IMG/VR virus record: IMGVR_UViG_3300005618_000044 | Span: 1 to 31,805 of that record | Source: a virus | Length of the DNA stretch: 31,805 bases | Strand: one strand, 5' to 3' | Shown here: piece by piece, positions 2,913-23,385 of the stretch | How the letters are laid out: the number at the start of each line of letters is the position of its first letter | Position numbering within the stretch: the stretch's first letter is position 1 | The notes under the pieces: generated by a model | What the model was told of the DNA's origin: nothing | The model's input: only the letters and a program-made list of their open reading frames with translations | Database searches by the model: none | Position numbers and translations under genes: made by a program

Positions 2913-3251
2913 GTGGCAAGGCGGGTCTATCACGTCGTCGACGGTGCCGGTGACATCCCGGACCTGAGGCGCGGCTTCGGACGGCCCCTCTCGACACGGG
3001 TCAAGCTGCTCGCCACCACCGTAGGGGCGCTCACGTCCATCGGCGGGTACGCGATCGGCATGGGCAGGTGGACCGTCGCCAAAATCGACGAGCAGGTAAC
3101 AACCATCGTGCGCCGCGAGAACGCGCCCATCGTTTCCAGCATCCAGGCATCAGACCGCCAGCGCAACGAGCAGTTCGCGAAGATGACGGCTGACATGTCC
3201 GATCTCAAGGCGGCGATGGCGAAGCTGTCGACCGAGAAACGCAGGCGATGA
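2913..3251 (+). CDS. Single-helix membrane protein with C-terminal coiled coil
   Basis: A 112-residue protein with a basic N-terminal part, one membrane helix at about residues 32-52 (LLATTVGALTSIGGYAIGMG), and a C-terminal heptad-like region rich in Lys, Gln and Ala. Together with the preceding two-helix protein it may form a holin/accessory-holin pair; this is positional inference. GTG 2913 lies two bases after the previous stop and behind a clear AAGGAG box at 2900-2905, which decides the start. Confidence 0.65.
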   Translation: MARRVYHVVDGAGDIPDLRRGFGRPLSTRVKLLATTVGALTSIGGYAIGMGRWTVAKIDEQVTTIVRRENAPIVSSIQASDRQRNEQFAKMTADMSDLKAAMAKLSTEKRRR

Positions 3252-6263: not shown

Positions 6264-6563
6264 CTATCCTAGCGCCCCGACCGCCCTGAGCGCATCTTCC
6301 TCTGTCTCGCATCGCACCCAGTGGTCCGGGTAGAAGTCGCGCATTTTCGCCTCGTTGTCGGTGATTTTCGTCTCGCTGCGGTGGCTGATCTTCTTGTGCG
6401 ACTTCGCTTCGATGAAGATTGGCGCCCCGGTGCGGATGTGCCGAGCGATGAAGTCGCAGCCTAGCTTGCCCATCTCGTGCACGTCGTCGACGCGCGTGAC
6501 CGACCTCAGCGCCGCGCCGATGGCCTTGTGTGTCGTGTCGGTCTTCCGCGCGAGGTACCTCAT
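6264..6563 (-). CDS. PD-(D/E)XK nuclease of phage VRR-NUC-like type
   Basis: A 99-residue small nuclease-like protein. The core is LGCDFIAR followed 14 residues later by FIEAKSHKK, giving the Asp ... Glu-x-Lys signature. After it comes ITDNEAKMRDFYPDHWVRC and EEDAL, which matches the pattern of small phage resolvase or VRR-NUC-like nucleases (acid pair, Glu/Lys helix, then a strand and an EDAL-type end). Such proteins cut DNA junctions or nick DNA. Start ATG 6563 overlaps the previous stop; an upstream extension to 6653 would run into the neighbouring gene. Confidence 0.62.
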   Translation of the reverse strand: MRYLARKTDTTHKAIGAALRSVTRVDDVHEMGKLGCDFIARHIRTGAPIFIEAKSHKKISHRSETKITDNEAKMRDFYPDHWVRCETEEDALRAVGALG

Positions 6564-7432
6564 TTCGGGGCTGGTCTTCCGTCGCGGATGGCGTCTACGA
6601 GTTCCCCCTGCTTTCCATTTCCCAGCAGCCACCACTCGGCAATCCCAGCGCACCGTTCACGCTCGGAAGAAAGTTGCGCTTCGAGCGTCATCACCTCGCC
6701 GATGAAGCAGTTCAGCAGGCGTCGCATTTCGGCATTCGCGCGCTCGAACACAGCGGAATCTCTCGCCGCCTGCATCCTTGCGCTCAGCGGCTCGGCGGGT
6801 GCGCCCTTGGCCGGCGCGGGCGGCTCGTCCGGGTCCGGCAAGTCCGGCATCGCGCCAATAATCTTCGACCACGGCGCAGGTTGCTCGGCGGGCGGCTCGA
6901 CCTTGACGATCGCGCCCATCTCGACGGCGTGGGCGGTGCAGGCTCCGGCTATCGGCAAGCCGTCAGTAGATTCCTCAACGAAGTCAGCCACCTCCCCAGA
7001 TGGAGCGTCGCAGTAAACGGGGCAGTCACTGTCGTACTTGCGGCGACCCGCGACCCACCCCGGCGCCAACTTGTACCCCGGCGGGATAGGTCCTGCGGGC
7101 TTGCAGTCACAGTTGCGGCTCGTCCCGACTCGCGTGGCGCATGCCTCGTCGTGCTTCTCGACCTGCCACGGCGACGGCATCAGCTCGTCCAGTGACTTGT
7201 CTTGCGCCAGGTAGTCGCGCAGGGCCGCGTGCGGCTCCGTCGCTCGGGCCTGAATAGGCACGGCAGCGGGAGTCCCTGTCGCTTGACGGAACGCCATTGC
7301 CGGATGAGCCGGCTGGATCGCCGCCTCCAGCTTCGCGATTCGGTCGGCCAGGCGTCTCTCCAGCGCGGCGAGGCAACTGTGATATGCGGGCCAGTGTGGG
7401 TCGTTCGGCTCACGGCAAGTCGTGCAGCTCAT
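6560..7432 (-). CDS. Leftward operon: hypothetical protein with Cys pairs
   Basis: A 290-residue protein of unknown function, the largest of the leftward operon. The N-terminus has a CTTC pair followed about 13 residues later by another Cys (HSC); the middle has CDC and CPVYC clusters, a proline-rich linker (about 195-215), and a helical C-terminal third rich in Ala, Arg and Glu. A metal-binding head with a helical tail is the most I can say. It is coupled by 4-nt overlaps at both ends. Confidence 0.6.
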   Translation of the reverse strand: MSCTTCREPNDPHWPAYHSCLAALERRLADRIAKLEAAIQPAHPAMAFRQATGTPAAVPIQARATEPHAALRDYLAQDKSLDELMPSPWQVEKHDEACATRVGTSRNCDCKPAGPIPPGYKLAPGWVAGRRKYDSDCPVYCDAPSGEVADFVEESTDGLPIAGACTAHAVEMGAIVKVEPPAEQPAPWSKIIGAMPDLPDPDEPPAPAKGAPAEPLSARMQAARDSAVFERANAEMRRLLNCFIGEVMTLEAQLSSERERCAGIAEWWLLGNGKQGELVDAIRDGRPAPK

Positions 7433-7674
7433 GGTTTTCTCCCCGAACGGATGGAAACGAGCGCGTCGAATGCCTTCCCGAGCGCGTCGAGGACCGGACC
7501 CGCTCGATCCTCTGACCTGTCGTTCAGGTAAGCGGATTTCGCTGTTCCCACGAGGTCCTGAATACGACCGAGGCAGTCAACAAGACGCGAGCCGGCGTGC
7601 TCTCCACCGCACCGCTCGCACGGCCTTCGCGACCGCTCTAGCGCACGAAGGAACGACTTGCTTGCCGCCCTCAT
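7429..7674 (-). CDS. Leftward operon: small helical protein
   Basis: An 81-residue protein with a basic N-terminus, a CERCGGEH motif at about 19-26 and a helical remainder. One CxxC plus His could bind zinc. No family is recognised. Its start overlaps the preceding stop and its own stop overlaps the next start (ATGA at both ends). Confidence 0.55.
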   Translation of the reverse strand: MRAASKSFLRALERSRRPCERCGGEHAGSRLVDCLGRIQDLVGTAKSAYLNDRSEDRAGPVLDALGKAFDALVSIRSGRKP

Positions 7675-8078
7675 GTCTCCGCCTCCCCTCCGAGCGCCAA
7701 GGCGCGCCGGGCGATTGCCGCGATGTCGATCAGTTCATGCGCCGACTTCAGCTCGCCGGCATTCACACTTCCGCTGGCAGCGCGCCCGCAAATCTCCTCC
7801 AGCGCCGCCTTGTACCTCGTCGCCTCCTCGCACGAGCAGCGCTCGACGGGGCGGGGCTGCGATGTCGTCATGCCGTGGCCCATGCCTCCGCACATAGACT
7901 CACCGAACGTGTCGAACGCCGGCTCGACGGGGCGCGGGGCCGGGTTCAGCGGAGCGCACGCCTTGGCGCATTCCCGCGTGCACCACGTCTCTTCGCACCA
8001 GCTTCGGAAGTCCGGCCCCGTGCCAGTCCCGCACCACGGCTTGCACGTCCGCCCCGCCTCGGGCTTGTCGGCGGTCAT
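7671..8078 (-). CDS. Leftward operon: Cys-rich hypothetical protein
   Basis: A 135-residue protein with many Cys in the first half (CKPWC, CEETWC, CAKAC, SMC, CSC), then a helical C-terminal half (about 85-135). The cysteines suggest one or two metal sites. Function is unknown. ATGA overlaps on both sides place it firmly in the operon. Confidence 0.55.
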   Translation of the reverse strand: MTADKPEAGRTCKPWCGTGTGPDFRSWCEETWCTRECAKACAPLNPAPRPVEPAFDTFGESMCGGMGHGMTTSQPRPVERCSCEEATRYKAALEEICGRAASGSVNAGELKSAHELIDIAAIARRALALGGEAET

Positions 8079-8398
8079 TCGTCCCTCCCGTCTCGCAGTC
8101 GTTCGCGTCGGTCCAACTCGTCACCCCTGTGTAGACTGTCCGCGCACTCCTCGCAGACGTCGACGTAGAACCCAGGCGAGTCCATTTTCCTTGTCTTGCG
8201 CCGCTCGACGGACGGGCCCTCGCAGTACCAGCAAGGACAAGGCTCGGGCTTATCGGTGGTCAGCCTGTCGTATTCCTTCAGCGCCACGTCGATCCTCCTC
8301 GTCTCGTCGGCCAACTTGCGGTCACCGCGGCACTCGTCGAAGCAGTAGCCGCGACCAGACGTGTTCCCGCACCAGGAGAATCCGTTGACGCAGTTCAC
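8075..8398 (-). CDS. Leftward operon: Cys-rich protein with CxxC knuckles
   Basis: A 107-residue protein with CPCWYC at about 53-58 and CEEC at about 84-87, a likely pair of zinc knuckles, and a charged C-terminus. I chose GTG 8398, which overlaps the previous stop as GTGA, over the longer frame to 8533, which would sit inside the neighbouring gene. Function is unknown. Confidence 0.55.
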   Translation of the reverse strand: MNCVNGFSWCGNTSGRGYCFDECRGDRKLADETRRIDVALKEYDRLTTDKPEPCPCWYCEGPSVERRKTRKMDSPGFYVDVCEECADSLHRGDELDRRERLRDGRDE

Positions 8399-8811
8399 AG
8401 CTGGCCTCGTAGCTTCTCCTGCATTTCCTCGCACAGTTCGTCCACGCGCCTGGCGTCGATGACGGAGCCAGAGTCGCACGACTTCATTGGGCTGGCCGCC
8501 ATCCTGCGCAGCGTCCCAAGCAATTCCAGGCACTCGGCGCGCTCCGCTCGCAGCAGCTCGATTTCGGCCCGCATTCTTTCCAGTTCGCCGAAGTCGCAGT
8601 CACACTCATGATCGACGGCGAGGCGGCATCGTCGCGACGGGTCCTCGCCGTCCAGCTTCTCACACCGCTTGATGTGCCAAGTCTTCCGCAGCCGCTCGTT
8701 TTCATCGGCGAGCGCGACGATGACGCGGTCATCAAGCACACTGCATCCTTCGACGAAACGGCGAGCAGCAGATACTGCCGCCGCAATCTCCTCCTTGCTC
8801 GGCGCGCTCAT
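8395..8811 (-). CDS. Leftward operon: hypothetical coiled-coil protein
   Basis: A 138-residue protein, mostly helical, with a leucine- and glutamate-rich segment (about 80-105) that looks like a short coiled coil and a CDCDFGEL patch before it. Start ATG 8811 overlaps the previous stop. No family is recognised. Confidence 0.58.
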   Translation of the reverse strand: MSAPSKEEIAAAVSAARRFVEGCSVLDDRVIVALADENERLRKTWHIKRCEKLDGEDPSRRCRLAVDHECDCDFGELERMRAEIELLRAERAECLELLGTLRRMAASPMKSCDSGSVIDARRVDELCEEMQEKLRGQL

Positions 8812-9026
8812 GGCTGGCTTCCGCTTTCGATGCACGAGCAAGCGCCTGTCGCAGCCATCCGCCGAATGCACCCGATCGAGTGCTGACCGCCGGAATAGCA
8901 GCACTCCTCGCATTGCGGGCCGTACGGATCAAATTTCTCGATCCCGGGGTATACGCCGCCGCACTCTCCGCTTTCGTATTCCTGCTGTTCGAGAATCGCG
9001 GCCTCGAAATCGACGGGGCGGTACAT
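8808..9026 (-). CDS. Leftward operon: small Cys-rich protein
   Basis: A 72-residue protein with CEECCY near residue 40 and CIRR and CSC further on, so probably metal-binding. Its ATG at 9026 is preceded by GGAGGGAAG at the end of the upstream micro-gene. Function is unknown. Confidence 0.5.
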   Translation of the reverse strand: MYRPVDFEAAILEQQEYESGECGGVYPGIEKFDPYGPQCEECCYSGGQHSIGCIRRMAATGACSCIESGSQP

Positions 9027-9027
9027 C

Positions 9028-9138
9028 TCACTTCCCTCCCATCAGCCAGACGACCAGGCCAAGCGGCCCGGCCAGCAGTCCCCACGCGCCGCACACGATG
9101 ACGGCGAGCTCCAGCGGGCGGATTGGGGTGATCTTCAT
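9028..9138 (-). CDS. Leftward operon: 36-residue membrane micro-protein
   Basis: Read on the minus strand this encodes a 36-residue protein with one hydrophobic helix (LAVIVCGAWGLLAGPLGLVV) and Lys at both ends. It fits exactly between its neighbours: it starts one base after the previous stop, behind a GGAG box, and ends one base before the next start. Small lysogeny-module membrane proteins can alter superinfection or stress responses, but nothing here shows that. Confidence 0.5.
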   Translation of the reverse strand: MKITPIRPLELAVIVCGAWGLLAGPLGLVVWLMGGK

Positions 9139-9895: not shown

Positions 9896-9910
9896 GGTCC
9901 GTCCTTTCCC

Positions 9911-9939
9911 TTGACGCGGCCTAGATGGCCGGCGATACC
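9911..9939 (+). promoter_or_regulatory. Candidate promoter of the repressor gene (near-leaderless)
   Basis: TTGACG (9911-9916) and GATACC (9934-9939) are separated by exactly 17 bases. The -35 matches 5 of 6 consensus positions, the -10 only 3 of 6. Transcription would start about 9946-9948, at the GTG of the repressor gene, and no ribosome-binding site precedes that GTG. GGCC-TAGAT-GGCC (9918-9930) lies in the spacer and could bind a protein. Confidence 0.5.
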
Positions 9940-9947
9940 GTTTCCTC

Positions 9948-10382
9948 GTGAGCGACCCGAAGCAGCCCGAGACGATGACCCCGAACCAGCTCCGCGCCCT
10001 TGCCGACAGGTTCGAGCGAGAAGCCGCCGCGCTGACTGCACGTGCGAGGCAGCTCCGAGGCGCGGCCGACACGATCGAGGCGATTCGGGCGATGCCGGTT
10101 GAGGCAGCAACGAATCCGTTGATTGCACGCAACGAATATGGCACGATAGATTCCATGTCGTCCACTGAAATCGTTGCGCCGGTGAAAAAGCGCCGTGGTC
10201 CGCCGTCCGAGGGGCCGATGACCGACCTCGCCCGCGAGCTTGGGTTCGCCTCGATGGCCGAACTCGCCACGGCTCTCAAGGAAAAGGACTCGAACGTGCG
10301 TGCCTGGAACCATCGCGGCGTCCCGGACGCGGCGAAGTCGAAGATCGAGCGGCTCAGGGCCAAGCGGGCGAAGCGAGCCTAG
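9948..10382 (+). CDS. CI-like repressor / small DNA-binding regulator
   Basis: A 144-residue protein. Residues 1-50 are a helical, probably coiled-coil oligomerisation segment. Residues about 90-140 read as a helix-turn-helix of the CI-repressor kind: LGFASMAELATALKEKDSNV then RAWNHRGVPDAAKSKIERL, where W-x-x-R-G-V-P after the recognition helix is typical of phage repressors. It is transcribed away from the leftward operon and is followed by operator-like repeats, as expected for a lysogeny regulator. GTG 9948 has no Shine-Dalgarno sequence and may be leaderless; ATG 9975 is the alternative start. There is no cleavage (S24 peptidase) domain, so induction would not follow the classical RecA route. 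Confidence 0.68.
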   Translation: MSDPKQPETMTPNQLRALADRFEREAAALTARARQLRGAADTIEAIRAMPVEAATNPLIARNEYGTIDSMSSTEIVAPVKKRRGPPSEGPMTDLARELGFASMAELATALKEKDSNVRAWNHRGVPDAAKSKIERLRAKRAKRA

Positions 10383-10456
10383 CGCGTCGCGTCTCCAAAT
10401 CGTTGCAGGTGACGATTTGCATGGACGGCACGCAACGATTAATTTAGATTCGTTGC
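10107..10456 (+). repeat. Six copies of operator-like motif TCGTTGC / GCAACGA
   Basis: GCAACGA occurs at 10107-10113, 10129-10135 and 10432-10438; its complement TCGTTGC at 10171-10177, 10400-10406 and 10450-10456. The last pair forms a perfect inverted repeat with 7-bp arms and 11-base spacing across an AT-rich stretch, directly in front of the first early gene. Another inverted repeat, AAATCG-N10-CGATTT (10397-10418), overlaps the fourth copy. This looks like the binding-site array of the adjacent repressor. Confidence 0.6.
10417..10445 (+). promoter_or_regulatory. Candidate early rightward promoter
   Basis: TTGCAT (10417-10422), 17 bases, then TAATTT (10440-10445); TAGATT at 10445-10450 is an alternative -10. 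It lies in the only AT-rich island of the region and inside the inverted TCGTTGC repeats, so a repressor bound there would cover it. The ATG at 10457 has no ribosome-binding site. Confidence 0.45.
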
Positions 10457-10654
10457 ATGACGATGAACCACGAAGCGGTCGAGTCGGTCTGCGGTTCCGC
10501 CACCTGCTGCCCCGGCGACCGCTGCGCGCCGTGCCGCTTGGCCATCGGCGATTCCTGTGAGGCGTGCGGCGCCCACGGCGAGGTCCTCGGCGGGATGTTC
10601 GAAGAGGTCGTCCTCTGTGCTGGCTGCAAGGCCGCGGAAGAAGGAGGCATCTGA
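10457..10654 (+). CDS. First early gene: small Cys-rich protein
   Basis: A 65-residue protein with several Cys pairs (CCPGDRC, CAPC, CEAC, CAGC), probably binding one or two zinc ions. As the first gene after the operator array it would be expressed at once on derepression, a place often held by Cro-like or host-takeover proteins, but no DNA-binding helix is visible. ATG 10457 follows the last operator copy directly, with no Shine-Dalgarno sequence. Confidence 0.55.
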   Translation: MTMNHEAVESVCGSATCCPGDRCAPCRLAIGDSCEACGAHGEVLGGMFEEVVLCAGCKAAEEGGI

Positions 10655-14219: not shown

Positions 14220-15200
14220 ATGACACGTGCGTTCGAAGACAAGCCCGCGACCCGCGAACAGGTTCCGCTGCTGATCGGGCTCGTCGGGGCAAGCGGTAGC
14301 GGCAAGACCATGAGTGCCTTGCGGCTGGCGACGGGAATCCAACGCGTGAGCGGCGGTGACGTGTTCTTCATCGACACCGAAGCCCGCCGGGCGCTGTACT
14401 ACGCGGACACGTTCAAGTTCAGGCACTTGGAGTTCCAGGCGCCATTCGGCCCCCTCGACTACCTCGCGGCGATCCGCCACTGCGTAGACAAGGGCGCGAA
14501 GACGATCATCATCGACAGCATGAGCCACGAGCACGAGGGACCCGGTGGCGTGCTGGAGATGCACGAGACGGAGGCGCAGCGGCTGTCTGCTGCGTGGAGG
14601 ACGTCGCTCGACAAGGTGAAGATGTCGGCGTGGCAGAAGCCAAAGTCCGAACGACGGCAGCTGCTCAACTCGATCTTGCAGATGAGCTGCAACTTCATTC
14701 TGAACTTCCGCGCGAAGGAGAAGATGGATCTGTCCGGCGACAAGCCGAGGCCCATGGGGTGGATGCCGATCGCGGGCGAGGAATTCGTCTACGAGATGAG
14801 CCTCAACGTGATGCTGTACCCGGGTGGCGCTGGCGTCCCGATTTGGAAAACCGACGAGAAGGGCGAGAAGTCGATCATCAAGCTTCCGGGGCAGTTCTCT
14901 AGCATCTTCGCGAAGTCACAGCCGCTATCTGAGGACATCGGAGAGCAGCTCGCGAGGTGGGCATCTGGGGGCGTGTCTACGGCTGCACAGAAGCGCGAGG
15001 CGCCGCCAGTGCCGACACCGGCACCTGTCCCGGTGGCCGACGATGACGCCATCACGGAGGACGAGTGGGAGGACGTCGAAGGGCGCATGGCGACGGCGCC
15101 AGACCTTGAGACGGCCCGCTCGATCGCGAACACCTACCGCCCGCGCATGAACGACTCCCAGAAGAAGCGGGCGCGCGTGCTCATCGAGAACCGCGCATGA
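14220..15200 (+). CDS. Sak4-like RecA-fold ATPase, single-strand annealing/recombination
   Basis: A 326-residue protein with a RecA-type ATPase core: Walker A GASGSGKT (23-30), a FIDTE strand (about 50-54) and Walker B TIIID (95-99). The C-terminal quarter is a Pro/Ala/Val linker and acidic helices, suited to contact with SSB or the exonuclease. Sak4 proteins anneal single strands with SSB help in phage recombination, and location behind a RecE-type nuclease supports that role. ATG 14220 has a strong GAGGAGAG leader. The alternative is a generic phage nucleotide-binding AAA protein. Confidence 0.75.
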   Translation: MTRAFEDKPATREQVPLLIGLVGASGSGKTMSALRLATGIQRVSGGDVFFIDTEARRALYYADTFKFRHLEFQAPFGPLDYLAAIRHCVDKGAKTIIIDSMSHEHEGPGGVLEMHETEAQRLSAAWRTSLDKVKMSAWQKPKSERRQLLNSILQMSCNFILNFRAKEKMDLSGDKPRPMGWMPIAGEEFVYEMSLNVMLYPGGAGVPIWKTDEKGEKSIIKLPGQFSSIFAKSQPLSEDIGEQLARWASGGVSTAAQKREAPPVPTPAPVPVADDDAITEDEWEDVEGRMATAPDLETARSIANTYRPRMNDSQKKRARVLIENRA

Positions 15201-15727
15201 TCGACGCCGCCCATCACCTGCCGCTGGTCTACAAGCTGGCACGCGACACCCATCGCCGGTGCCCGTCGTTCGACTTCGACGATCTCGTGTCGGCCGGTGC
15301 GATCGGGCTGTGCGAGGCGGCCAAGAGATACCGCAGTCGCGACGGATCCACGTTCGCGACGTTCGCATGGTGGCGCATCAATGGCGCGATGGTCGACTGG
15401 ATGCGAAAGACAGGCCCGTATCGCAGGGCTGACGTCGAAGCGGTCCGACAAGGTGAGCAGTTCACGGGGGAGTTCGTGAGCGGCGATCTCGATGACTTCG
15501 CTTCCAAGACCATCCCGCCAGAGGAGACGATCGGCCTCGCACGGGATGTCGCCTCTGTGCAGGCTCGCGTAGCCGCCCTGCCAGAGAAGGAGCGTCGGCT
15601 ACTCTGTCTGATGTACGGCCCGGAGGAGATGAACCTCGAAGAGGCCGGCCGCGTTCTCGGGATGAACAAGTCATGGGCCTGTCGTCTGCGCGCGCGGGCG
15701 TTCGCCGAGATTCGCGCCGCCAGCTGA
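15197..15727 (+). CDS. Phage sigma factor, FliA/WhiG-like sigma-70 family
   Basis: A 176-residue RNA polymerase sigma factor. Region 2 covers about residues 5-75: DFDDLVSAGAIGLCEAAKRY (2.1-2.2) and STFATFAWWRINGAMVDWMR (2.3-2.4). Region 4 covers about 125-175: ALPEKERRLLCLMYG, then a helix-turn-helix NLEEAGRVLGMNKSWACRLR. The short middle and the order of residues are closest to the FliA/SigF/WhiG group, but it is shorter than FliA (about 240) because region 3 is reduced. It would direct host RNA polymerase to phage promoters, perhaps of late genes. It overlaps the recombination ATPase gene by ATGA. Confidence 0.82.
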   Translation: MIDAAHHLPLVYKLARDTHRRCPSFDFDDLVSAGAIGLCEAAKRYRSRDGSTFATFAWWRINGAMVDWMRKTGPYRRADVEAVRQGEQFTGEFVSGDLDDFASKTIPPEETIGLARDVASVQARVAALPEKERRLLCLMYGPEEMNLEEAGRVLGMNKSWACRLRARAFAEIRAAS

Positions 15728-16193: not shown

Positions 16194-17222
16194 GTGACGC
16201 CAGACGCCCGCCGCCAGATCGTGCAGACGATCGCGACCCTACGTGCCCTCCTGGACACGGACGAAGAGGGCGCGGCGCTCGAGCGCGTGACCGTCGGCGA
16301 GCTCTGGACGAGGTACCTGGCGACGCTGCCCGCGAAGGAAGCTGAGCACTGGGTGCGGTCGATGATTTCGATGACGAAGCCGATCCTGGCGCGCATCGGT
16401 GAGCTCGCAGCGTCGTCCATAACGGTCCAGCACTGGGAGGACTACAGGGATGACCCGGCCATCCGCGCGCGGTTCTGCTCGACGAGCCGGAACCTGCACC
16501 TGAAGCGCATGAGCACGTTCTTCGGCTGGGCGGTCCGCACGGGGCGGATGGCTTCGAATCCGTGGAAGGACGTCAAGCGCGAGCGAGGCGCGCCGAAGCG
16601 TGAGACCGAGGTCAGCGCCGACGGTGAGGCAGCCGTGCTCGAGCGGTTCGATCCGACCATGCAGGCGTTCATCATCGTGGCGGTCGACACGGCCATGCGG
16701 CGCGACGAGATCCGCCTGCTCGAATGGACGGACCTGGACATGGCTTCGGGGACCGTGACCATCCCGGCGACTAGGACGAAGACCAAGCGAGCTCGCGCCG
16801 GCCGGCTCACGTCCAGGGCCATTGAGGCGCTCCAGGCCGTGCCGAGGGTGCCCGGCTCGCCGTGGGTCTTCTGCAACCCGGAGACGAAGCGCCCGTGGCA
16901 CCAGGCGACGATCACGTCACGCTGGCGGCGGGCGGCCGACGAGGCGAAGCTTCAGCCAGCGGCCGGGGACAAGTCGGTCCGCCTGCATGATTTGCGCGGG
17001 ACGGCCATCAGCCGCCTGCACCGGCTCGGGGCTCCAATTGGCGCCATCCAGAAGATCGCCGGCCATGCGTCGCTCACGACGACCGCCGGGTACATCCGCG
17101 TCAACTCGAAGGACATCGAGGCCGCGCACGAGCTCCTCGAGCAGGCGACGCGCAAGGGGCCGCACCGCTCGTTCGTTACCGTCGCGAACCCTGTCGTAGC
17201 CGAAGCAATCCAACGAGGCTGA
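16194..17222 (+). CDS. int: Tyrosine recombinase integrase
   Basis: A 342-residue site-specific recombinase that should integrate the phage into, and excise it from, the host chromosome. Residues about 30-135 form the SAM-like core-binding domain. The catalytic domain has all expected residues: Arg169 (TAMRRDEI), a basic beta-hairpin around Lys195-199 (RTKTKRAR), His265-x-x-Arg268 (LHDLRGT), His291 (GHASLTT) and the nucleophile Tyr300 (GYIRV). The N-terminal arm-binding domain is short or missing. GTG 16194 has only a weak ribosome-binding site. The gene is intact and flanked by non-coding DNA on both sides. Confidence 0.93.
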   Translation: MTPDARRQIVQTIATLRALLDTDEEGAALERVTVGELWTRYLATLPAKEAEHWVRSMISMTKPILARIGELAASSITVQHWEDYRDDPAIRARFCSTSRNLHLKRMSTFFGWAVRTGRMASNPWKDVKRERGAPKRETEVSADGEAAVLERFDPTMQAFIIVAVDTAMRRDEIRLLEWTDLDMASGTVTIPATRTKTKRARAGRLTSRAIEALQAVPRVPGSPWVFCNPETKRPWHQATITSRWRRAADEAKLQPAAGDKSVRLHDLRGTAISRLHRLGAPIGAIQKIAGHASLTTTAGYIRVNSKDIEAAHELLEQATRKGPHRSFVTVANPVVAEAIQRG

Positions 17223-17519: not shown

Positions 17520-18181
<662 letters not shown>

Positions 18182-18185
<4 letters not shown>

Positions 18186-20432: not shown

Positions 20433-21049
20433 TCGTGATCTGCCCCCACTGCCACAACGACGTCGTGATCGTCATGACGACCAAGGAATGCGTCAGCGTT
20501 GAAACTGCGCCTGACAGCGTTCAAATCAACGTTCAAAACAGCACTAACGGTGAGAAAAACGCACGTTCAAATGCCGATAACGCACGTTTTATTATCTCCG
20601 AGGGGGGAAAGGGGGGTGTTCCGGATCTGGCTCTTTCTCCCTCCGATCCCTATCAGCAACCCGGATCCGGAGCGCGCGCGATCCGGAGGGGACGCAGGGA
20701 CGCCACCGACTATCCCCTGGGCTTCCTGGCGCTCTGGGCTCTGGCGAAGGCGCAGGGCAAGGCGGGAAACAAGTACCCTGCGTTTAAAGCGTATTTGAAA
20801 TTAAACGCTGACGCTGAATTAAACGCACTGATTTTAACGCGGTTCGAAGAGTGGACGCACGCCGACGCCTGGAAACGCGGCTTCAATCAGCACCTGTCGA
20901 CCTGGCTCAACCAGCGCGGCTGGGAGGAGCCTCCGACGCCGGCTGACCTGAGGGGCGCGGAATCTAGAAACGTCGCTTCTGGCGCAAACGGGAGCGCCAC
21001 GCGCATGCATCAGTACAAGATTCTCAACCCGAAGCCGAAGGCGTCATGA
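20429..21049 (+). CDS. Probable replication protein / helicase loader, with N-terminal zinc knuckle
   Basis: A 206-residue protein directly in front of the DnaB helicase. It has a CPHC pair (5-8) with a further Cys at 21, a polar linker (about 25-90), and a C-terminal helical domain with FLALWALAKAQG and HLSTWLNQRGWEEPP (155-169). The last motif is the common ending of phage replisome-organiser and DnaT-like loader proteins. Linker and C-terminal codons are unusually AT-rich because they contain iteron-like repeats. GTG 20429 overlaps the methyltransferase stop. The loader role is inferred from ending and position. Confidence 0.65.
   Translation: MIVICPHCHNDVVIVMTTKECVSVETAPDSVQINVQNSTNGEKNARSNADNARFIISEGGKGGVPDLALSPSDPYQQPGSGARAIRRGRRDATDYPLGFLALWALAKAQGKAGNKYPAFKAYLKLNADAELNALILTRFEEWTHADAWKRGFNQHLSTWLNQRGWEEPPTPADLRGAESRNVASGANGSATRMHQYKILNPKPKAS
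20496..20620 (+). repeat. Iteron-like repeats RCGTTCAAA with AT-rich and G-run flanks (candidate origin, part 1)
   Basis: RCGTTCAAA occurs at 20517-20525, 20529-20537 and 20563-20571, with a variant GCGTTGAAA at 20496-20504. They are followed by an AT-rich ACGTTTTATTATCT (20584-20597) and two runs of six G separated by AAA (20602-20616). This arrangement inside a replication gene recalls the lambda origin inside gene O. Confidence 0.55.
20554..20580 (+). promoter_or_regulatory. Possible FliA-type promoter
   Basis: GAAA (20554-20557), 15 bases, then an exact GCCGATAA (20573-20580). The FliA consensus is TAAA-N15-GCCGATAA. One exact 8-base match on either strand is about what chance gives in a window of this size, so this is only a candidate, noted because the window encodes a FliA-like sigma factor. 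Confidence 0.2.
20780..20840 (+). repeat. Iteron-like repeats TTAAACGC (candidate origin, part 2)
   Basis: GCGTTTAA (20780-20787, inverted), TTAAACGC (20801-20808), TTAAACGC (20819-20826) and a partial TTTTAACGC (20832-20840) lie within 61 bases. They force AT-rich Leu, Asn and Lys codons in a gene whose neighbours avoid them, which suggests selection on DNA rather than on protein. Confidence 0.55.
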
Positions 21050-23385
21050 CCAACGCACCCAACCCGCCGCACAGCATCGACGCCGAGAAGGCCGTCCTCG
21101 GCTCGGTGCTGATCAAGCCGACCGTCTTCGCCGAGCTCGCCGGCATGCTGGCCACCGACGACTTTTTCATCCCGGCTCACCGCGAAATTTGGGACGCGAT
21201 GCGCGAGTGCGACCGGCGCGGGACGCTCGACGTGCTGACGGTGATGGACGAGCTCAGGGTGCGCGGGATGATCCAGCGGCTCGAAGGCGGCGAGGGGTAC
21301 ATGCTCGAGCTGTCCGGGGCGGTCCCGACGGCCGAGAGCGCGCGGCACTACACCGAGCTGGTCCGCGAACGGGCGGTCCGTCGAAGGCTGATCGCGCTGG
21401 CGACCGAGACGGCGATGCGGGCGGCTGGTTCGGCCGAGTTGGGCGAGCTGCTGGCCGAGACGCGGGCGAGCATCGACGCGCTGGAGGTGCCTGCAGACGA
21501 CGGTCCGGTGCGAGTAGGGGACGCGCTTGACGAGGCGAAGGATGCCATCGAGGCGCGGGCCAAGAACACGCGCGCAGGCTCGGTGCCGACTGGCCTGATG
21601 TCGCTCGATGGGATGCTCGGCGGGCTCCGACCTGGCCAGCAAATCGTCGTGGCGGCGAACCCGGGTGGCGGGAAGTGTCTGAGTCCCGGAACCCTCGTCA
21701 TGCGCGCGGATGGTTCTGTCGTTCCGGTTGAGCACGTTGCCGTTGGAGACCTTCTCATGGGTGCAGACTCCAAGCCGAGGAAGGTGCTTGGAACCACCAG
21801 AGGCATCGGTCCGATGTTTCGGATTACGCCAATCAAGGGAGCGCCGTGGGTGTGCAACTCTGAACATGTCCTGACGACTGTCCACTCCAAGACCGGTAAG
21901 GTGACAGACATTCCGCTCACCGAGTTCATCGCCACTGACAAGACCTTCCAGGGCGACAGCAAGCTATTCCGGGTAGCGGTTGAGTTTCCACAGAGAGAAC
22001 TTCCTGTCGATCCGTACTTTCTCGGAGTCGTTCTAGGCGACGGCTGCATGGTGGACGGGTCGCTCAGTGTGTGCAAACCAGAGAAGGCCATCGCCGACGA
22101 GTGTTCATCGCAGGCCAAAAAATGGGGGCTGATCTATTGGGCTTCGCGCTCAGGAACAACAACAGAGACCCATCACATCGTGTCCAAGCGCGGATCTGGA
22201 GGGAAACATGGACGCAGTCGGCTCTACCTTACGCTCGCCGAGTTGGGTGCGGCCTCCCCGGCAGCAGCCAAGAGGATCCACGAGTCGTATCTGACGGCAG
22301 CCAAGTGGCAACGCCTGGAACTGTTAGCCGGGCTCATGGACACCGATGGTCACATGACACACTCGTCGTTCGATTGGATCTCGGCTTCTCCGCATCTTGC
22401 AGATGACGTAACCAGGCTTGCTCGTTCGGTTGGTTTGTCTGCTCACGTAAGTCCATGTCGCAAGGGATGCCAGACCGGCGCCGTCGGAGACTACTACCGC
22501 GTCTGCATTTCCGGGCATGCCGACATGATCCCGACGAGAATTCCTCGCAAGAAGGCTCCGCCGCGGAAACAGATCAAGGACGCGCTTAGGACCGGGTTCA
22601 CCGTCGAGCCAATCGGCGATGGAAATTATGCCGGGTTCGAGCTCGACGGAGATGGTCGATTCTTGCTCGCCGACTTCACGGTTGCGCACAATTCCTCGCT
22701 GGCATGGGTCACTGCCATCCGCGCAGCGATGTCGGGTGTCCCGGCGCTGTGCTTCTCGCTCGAGATGTCGCGCCAGGAGCTGATCGAGCGTGCGCTGACC
22801 TTCGTCGGTGAGGTGCCAGGCATCACGAACGGCGACGTGGACCTGGCGAAATGGGACAAGATCCACAAGGCCGACCGACAGATTCGCGGCATCCCGCTGT
22901 GGGTCGACGACCGTAAGCTGTCCGTCGGCCGCATCGCCGCCGAGGCTCGCCGGTGGCGGTCACGGTACGCACGTGGCGGTCTCGCGCTGCTGGTGGTCGA
23001 CTATCTCGGGCTCGTGCGGTCAGACGGCCGCGCCGAGAACCGACAGCTTGAGGTGGCCGCGATGTCCCGCGCCTTCAAGGTGCTGGCCGGTGACTTGAAG
23101 TGCCCGTTGATTCTGGTGGCGCAGCTCAACCGCCAGAACGTCACGGGCGGCGTGCCGCGGATGCCGGTGCTATCTGACCTTCGTGACTCGGGGGCTATCG
23201 AGCAGGACGCCGACATAGTGCTGTTCCCGTGGATTCAGGACAGCGACACGCAAATCATCATCGCCAAGCACCGCAACGGTGAGACCGGAATCGTCAAGCA
23301 AGTCAGGTGGCGCGGCGACTTGATGGCCTTCTACGACGACACGGGACCGGACTTCAGTGTCGCAGAGAACGAGAGGTACCCGTGA
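21046..23385 (+). CDS. dnaB: Replicative DNA helicase DnaB, interrupted by an intein
   Basis: A 779-residue precursor. Removing the intein (residues 211-549) leaves 440 residues, the normal DnaB length. The N-terminal domain begins with the typical SIDAEKAVLGSVL. The RecA-like motor domain has Walker A ANPGGGK (split at its end), LEMSRQE, Walker B LLVVDYLGLV, the QLNR motif and DLRDSGAIEQDAD. The hexamer unwinds DNA at the phage fork, probably loaded by the preceding gene product. The intein must splice out to restore the P-loop, so helicase activity depends on splicing. The ATG overlaps the loader gene. Confidence 0.95.
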   Translation: MTNAPNPPHSIDAEKAVLGSVLIKPTVFAELAGMLATDDFFIPAHREIWDAMRECDRRGTLDVLTVMDELRVRGMIQRLEGGEGYMLELSGAVPTAESARHYTELVRERAVRRRLIALATETAMRAAGSAELGELLAETRASIDALEVPADDGPVRVGDALDEAKDAIEARAKNTRAGSVPTGLMSLDGMLGGLRPGQQIVVAANPGGGKCLSPGTLVMRADGSVVPVEHVAVGDLLMGADSKPRKVLGTTRGIGPMFRITPIKGAPWVCNSEHVLTTVHSKTGKVTDIPLTEFIATDKTFQGDSKLFRVAVEFPQRELPVDPYFLGVVLGDGCMVDGSLSVCKPEKAIADECSSQAKKWGLIYWASRSGTTTETHHIVSKRGSGGKHGRSRLYLTLAELGAASPAAAKRIHESYLTAAKWQRLELLAGLMDTDGHMTHSSFDWISASPHLADDVTRLARSVGLSAHVSPCRKGCQTGAVGDYYRVCISGHADMIPTRIPRKKAPPRKQIKDALRTGFTVEPIGDGNYAGFELDGDGRFLLADFTVAHNSSLAWVTAIRAAMSGVPALCFSLEMSRQELIERALTFVGEVPGITNGDVDLAKWDKIHKADRQIRGIPLWVDDRKLSVGRIAAEARRWRSRYARGGLALLVVDYLGLVRSDGRAENRQLEVAAMSRAFKVLAGDLKCPLILVAQLNRQNVTGGVPRMPVLSDLRDSGAIEQDADIVLFPWIQDSDTQIIIAKHRNGETGIVKQVRWRGDLMAFYDDTGPDFSVAENERYP
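21676..22692 (+). mobile_element. Intein with LAGLIDADG homing endonuclease in the DnaB P-loop
   Basis: A 339-residue intein inserted between Lys210 and the Ser that completes the Walker A motif. It starts with the nucleophile Cys in CLSPGTLVMRADG (block A) and ends with the FTVAHN block, with Ser as the first residue after it. Block B is CNSEHVLTT. The homing endonuclease shows two LAGLIDADG helices, FLGVVLGDGC (intein residues 115-124) and LLAGLMDTDG (217-226), both with an acidic residue. Splicing and endonuclease residues look intact. A 60-base sample inside it is 55% GC against 73% in the flanking helicase, a sign of separate origin. Confidence 0.93.

Follow-up and report, generated by a model that had tools for sequence, protein, structure and literature searches.

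The 31,805 bases of IMG/VR virus record IMGVR_UViG_3300005618_000044, referred to here as the window, contain an open reading frame for a putative 144-residue repressor that is co-directional with the early genes and separated from the first of them by a 74-base gap (10383-10456). Features of this cassette are listed in Table 1. Within it we found six copies of the 7-mer GCAACGA/TCGTTGC, at 10107(+), 10129(+), 10171(-), 10400(-), 10432(+) and 10450(-), which together span exactly 350 bases (10107-10456). Three copies fall inside the reading frame and three inside the gap, confirming both the count and the division given in an earlier note on this DNA. The same note had described one pair as a perfect inverted repeat across an AT-rich candidate promoter, and this also holds, the dyad GCAACGA-N11-TCGTTGC at 10432-10456 having perfect 7-base arms that span TTAATTTAGAT.

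Table 1. Genes, predicted promoters and candidate operator sites of the cassette (positions in the window).
Feature	Position	Strand	Remarks
Predicted upstream promoter P1	9909-9939	+	TTGACG-N17-GATACC; ends 8 bases before GTG 9948
Putative repressor ORF, long form, 144 aa	9948-10382	+	N-terminal helix, disordered linker, C-terminal HTH
Conserved 49-codon block (helix 12-47)	9948-10094	+	Common to four phages; DNA identity stops at 10094
Candidate operator site GCAACGAAT	10107-10115	+	Upstream of internal -35
Predicted internal promoter	10119-10147	+	TTGATT-N17-CACGAT; 7 bases before ATG 10155
Candidate operator site GCAACGAAT	10129-10137	+	-35/-10 spacer, 26 bases before ATG 10155
Putative repressor, short form, 75 aa	10155-10382	+	Internal in-frame ATG
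Candidate operator site GCAACGATT	10169-10177	-	14 bases into short gene
Predicted HTH DNA-binding domain, residues 90-143	10215-10379	+	Differs between phages
Candidate operator site GCAACGATT	10398-10406	-	Upstream of early -35
Predicted early promoter	10417-10450	+	6 bases before ATG 10457
Candidate operator site GCAACGATT	10432-10440	+	Spacer/-10, 25 bases before ATG 10457
Candidate operator site GCAACGAAT	10448-10456	-	Abuts early start codon; dyad partner of 10432
First early gene, 65 aa	10457-10654	+	Cysteine-rich (zinc-binding-like)

The total number of 7-mers in the window is not unusual (9 observed versus 6.7 expected), and it is their clustering that stands out. The genome-wide count proposed in the earlier note gave six copies in the cluster versus three in the remaining ~31.4 kb (GCAACGA at 3163, 26235 and 29743), so that the motif is not equally common outside. 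Among 400 first-order random sequences of the same dinucleotide make-up as the window, none exceeded 3 copies in any 350-base stretch. Extended by two bases to GCAACGAWT, the motif occurs six times in the cluster and nowhere else in the window, with 0-3 copies per genome in 400 random genomes; a smaller earlier simulation (mean 0.45) contained one outlier of 6, which was absent from the 400-sequence run. The spacing of the sites is mixed (22 direct, 18 inverted), and they occupy all three phases of the reading frame in both orientations, which argues for selection on the DNA and against a repeated peptide as its target. When viral contigs were searched for the pattern of the GCAACGAWT dyad, 17 loci came up.

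In the predicted structure of the 144-residue protein, obtained at moderate confidence (pLDDT 67), a long helix (residues 12-47) is followed by a linker predicted with low confidence (53-86) and then by four helices that form a compact domain (90-143). Structural alignment places this domain with Cro, CI, Xre and Aca folds at Z 5-6.7, values which are common for small HTH domains and thus indicate the fold class and no more. Profile matches are weak and point toward transcription regulators (phrog_409, E 0.004), and Foldseek with the predicted structure returned no match at E below 0.001. Annotated phages offered no confident relative (one match at E=6), and a sequence search of solved structures gave nothing. 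Taken together we predict, with moderate confidence, a Cro/CI-type helix-turn-helix in the product of this frame. A small Fis-like HTH gene followed by CTAGGAC copies was also seen in another related phage (L033, 16600-16900), and is possibly an unrelated repressor-operator set.

A strict sigma-70 promoter and terminator scan detected no promoter and no terminator. Promoters of the window and of three related phages (L001, L002 and L004) were scored against 2000 shuffles, the -10 being held at 5-8 bases ahead of the start codon, which puts that codon at the expected start point. Across the four phages jointly none of 2000 shuffles did as well for the internal set, nor for the early-gene set. 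The window internal promoter alone gave p 0.023 and that of L002, the exception, scored poorly (p 0.37); these probabilities are somewhat optimistic, since we picked the internal start guided by homology. Among the best predictions are the L004 internal promoter (TTGACA-N17-AACACT-N7-GTG) and the early promoters of L004 (TTGACC-N17-TAGAGT-N7-ATG), L002 (TTGACG-N17-TATGAA-N7-ATG) and L001 (TTGCAT-N18-TATAAC-N6-ATG). The window early promoter can be read either as TTGCAT(10417)-N17-TAATTT or as TGGACG(10422)-N17-TAGATT, and the -10 hexamers of the predicted promoters are far from consensus. The upstream P1 (p 0.006 by shuffling in the window, with weaker scores in the relatives) lies in a region with no GCAACGAWT sites. 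A phage sigma-70-like factor with regions 2 and 4 is encoded at 15197-15727, and might read some non-consensus promoters.

The GCAACGAWT motif is limited to the predicted promoters of the repressor and early genes. The internal predicted start point coincides with the in-frame ATG 10155, mirroring the early gene at ATG 10457, and homologues of this internal start follow the linker in frame in every phage (window M70, L001 M64, L002 M65, L004 V64). The intragenic sites reported in the earlier note do lie inside the reading frame, but they are not a remote gene-body set, since they flank this predicted promoter and its ATG. Relative to the start codon, the 7-base motif of the window stands at -26(+) for the internal start, and at -25(+) and -7(-) for the early start; the offsets of the L002 motif are -30(+) and -8(-), and -29(+) and -7(-), respectively. 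A plus-strand site is kept 25-30 bases before the start codon, with a minus-strand site abutting the start in several cases.

Only three independent relatives of the window were found: L001, L004 and L002, of which L003 is a near copy. Their DNA is 86-91% identical to the window over 9934-10094, where the match breaks off abruptly, and all three of these integrase-bearing phages retain the first 49 codons of the 144-residue gene. In L002 the match begins again at 10460, within the first early gene, which encodes a protein 92% identical to that of the window behind an unrelated operator. The stretch bounded in this way has a different binding domain and a different repeated motif in each phage. 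L002 possesses five copies of GTGTCTA in its cassette and one elsewhere in 52 kb, a strong motif that none of 60 shuffles equalled. The motif of L004, GTAGAGTG/ACTCTAC, has three copies in the cassette and is weak alone (9 of 60 shuffles equal that number), as is the motif of L001, which comprises two exact copies of GCATCGGTT and degenerate ones upstream. Counted over whole records, GCAACGAWT occurs 6 times in the window, once in L004 and not at all in L001 or L002; GTGTCTA 6 times in L002 and 1-2 times in L001 and L004; and GTAGAGTG twice in L004 and never in the other three, so that each phage's motif is essentially restricted to its own cassette.

These comparisons indicate that the operator motif changes with the DNA-binding domain, strongly for the window and L002 and more weakly for L001 and L004. 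L001 has the sole binding domain clearly homologous to that of the window (the short forms are 51% identical), and between its motif GCATCGGTT and the window GCAACGATT 7 of 9 positions agree, a resemblance that is expected if motif divergence follows domain divergence. Judged from sequence, the joint replacement of domain and motif fits the picture expected if matching repressor-operator pairs are swapped between phages as one immunity module. Runs of ~28-33 bases within 9948-10094 are identical in the four phages, beyond what the protein needs, and may be recombination borders. Elsewhere, at 6555-9131, the related phages share short islands of 27-60 bases (90-100% identical) in minus-strand genes that otherwise do not align, which makes this region a mosaic containing conserved gene fragments. 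Searches with the early 65-residue gene, the L001 early gene or the binding domain alone brought up no further phages, and cellular genomes yielded no relative of either the N-terminal block or the AAA gene. Clusters of 7-mers in AAA-gene relatives (L034, L049, L053 and L032) were set aside, by reading only, as unrelated and lying in low-complexity or replication-type surroundings.

All four phages carry a tyrosine integrase gene (in L004 with a score under the curated cut-off), which in the window lies at 16194-17222, 6 kb from the cassette. No tRNA genes were found in the window. Other features of this genome include a DnaB-type helicase gene at 21046-23385 that is split by an intein carrying a LAGLIDADG homing endonuclease, and a coding repeat of ~12-base period (GCCGCCTACGCC) at 17937-18098 within ORF 17520-18185.

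We consider it likely that this locus is the immunity cassette of a temperate soil phage, in which an HTH repressor, made in two forms, acts on GCAACGAWT operators at the early and internal promoters, its binding domain and these operators being exchanged as a unit. The asymmetric half-sites would be recognised by the DNA-binding domain, with three disposed around the early promoter and three around the promoter inside the repressor frame; given sites around both promoters, bound repressor would block early transcription as well as its own synthesis. Most likely RNA polymerase would be occluded at the early promoter, giving lysogeny, and at the internal promoter, giving negative feedback. The mRNAs predicted from both site-flanked promoters are leaderless and begin at the start codon. 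A point against this reading is that the genes are co-directional and no terminator was found between them, so that read-through in a lysogen must be blocked otherwise. We propose that the autoregulated 75-residue form is accompanied by a 144-residue form with the conserved N-terminal helix, which would be expressed from the site-free promoter upstream of GTG 9948. This helix probably oligomerises and tethers binding domains to variably spaced half-sites, and the mixed spacing would suit single binding domains on a flexible linker. In the relatives the unit of exchange runs from the end of the helix to the early start codon, taking binding domain and operators together. The sites, their clustering, this swap, the common offsets and the unbroken frame are seen directly in the sequence, while binding, leaderless starts, the two isoforms and a role in lysogeny are deduced from it.

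A variant of this explanation, not exclusive of its core, is that only the short protein is made from ATG 10155 and the upstream 49 codons are a separate in-frame remnant or small gene. We regard this as possible but on balance unlikely. The internal start and promoter do resemble the early ones, and the identical runs in the N-terminal block exceed protein constraint, whereas in all four phages an uninterrupted frame joins the block to the binding domain despite differing linker lengths, and variation in the block favours third codon positions (14 of 26 variable columns). The latter two observations support the long form, although neither is proof.

The main rival, given that the gene shares its direction with the early genes and that all four records may be fragments, is a Cro-like or Aca-like autoregulator opening a rightward operon, the true lysogeny repressor being encoded in an unsequenced part or having another fold. 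The short form is Cro-sized, and the nearest folds include the Cro proteins of N15, P22 and Xfaso1 as well as Aca proteins. Nevertheless, we think such a role quite unlikely, as immunity determinants typically show such a co-swap of binding domain and operator among phages that are otherwise related. Furthermore, HTH_3 (Pfam PF01381) had no match at its curated cut-off in any of the four records, and no other canonical HTH_3/HTH_31 regulator was found in them, the 46.7- and 52-kb records included, with the limit that these profiles also miss ORF 9948-10382 itself. The lysogeny switch named in the earlier note is supported in part, namely as to the operator motif, the adjacent repressor-like gene and autoregulation, while we infer for the product the role of lysogeny repressor and not that of a Cro-like autoregulator.

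From the intragenic sites the earlier note had also suggested autoregulation or looping, and of the two we favour autorepression, as these sites flank the internal promoter. Looping between the gene cluster and the early-promoter cluster appears distinctly improbable: the two are about 300 bases apart and the long helix could oligomerise, but the distances (about 303 bases in the window versus 363 in L002) share no helical phase, and a local promoter accounts for each cluster. That the repeats are due to chance, or are host-factor sites unrelated to the adjacent gene, is hardly credible, for although the 7-mer by itself is not in excess across the window, its clustering lies outside 400 random genomes and the motif changes with the binding domain.

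The immunity cassette preferred here invites comparison with known systems. As in lambda OR/OL-CI/Cro and the exchange of lambdoid imm regions, an HTH repressor adjoins its operators and is exchanged with them as a unit, and the operators overlap the repressor and early promoters (predicted ones in the window). The lambda cI mRNA from PRM is leaderless, as the window mRNAs are predicted to be. Unlike lambda, the putative window repressor and early gene are co-directional, the sites are asymmetric 9-mers of mixed orientation and spacing, the operators lie partly inside the repressor frame, and it is the region on the N-terminal side of the HTH that is conserved in the repressor. In Streptomyces phage phiC31 the repressor isoforms are nested, in-frame N-terminal forms. 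The likeness is that one repressor gene gives several proteins, as proposed here, but the phiC31 repressor sites are dispersed over the genome. PMC4557955 cites phiC31 as reported to make three repressor isoforms.

The stoperators of cluster A mycobacteriophages L5 and TipsytheTRex are asymmetric, and motif and repressor diverge together into immunity types, as appears to be the case here; L5-type sites number more than 20 across the genome and are oriented with transcription, under a repressor with two DNA-binding domains (PMC9283540, PMC6550527). In contrast, the window sites point both ways and are all confined to a single cassette of 350 bases. Half-sites with variable spacers, operators at the repressor and early promoters and two repressor forms are features that mycobacteriophage BPs gp33 has in common with the cassette proposed here. 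The BPs forms, of 136 and 103 residues, differ through integration and bind 12-base palindromic half-sites at five loci (PMC4557955); in integration-dependent immunity of this type attP lies inside the repressor gene and the viral form is C-terminally longer. The two forms proposed for the window differ instead at the N-terminus. We therefore describe the cassette as working like a classical immunity region, without filing it under the L5, BPs or phiC31 types.

The repressor-operator cassette is real, well supported and ordinary in its class, and what is unusual are the shared N-terminal helix, the swapped binding domains and the operators at an internal start. It is tempting to go further and envisage a modular repressor, with a conserved oligomerisation helix and interchangeable binding domains, operators within the linker codons where the exchange takes place, constitutive long and autoregulated short leaderless forms, and possibly mixed oligomers. 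We hold this to be doubtful at present, but if true, long forms of different immunity types could mix in one cell. If both start codons are used, the locus would clearly exemplify nested, leaderless isoforms of a repressor whose operators lie inside a coding linker. The four phages represent four natural versions of one switch, differing in binding domain and operator with the rest in common, and exchange of the two together would be the way in which such phages change immunity type. The set allows direct tests of the exchange of immunity specificity, and predicts which of the soil phages would mutually exclude each other.
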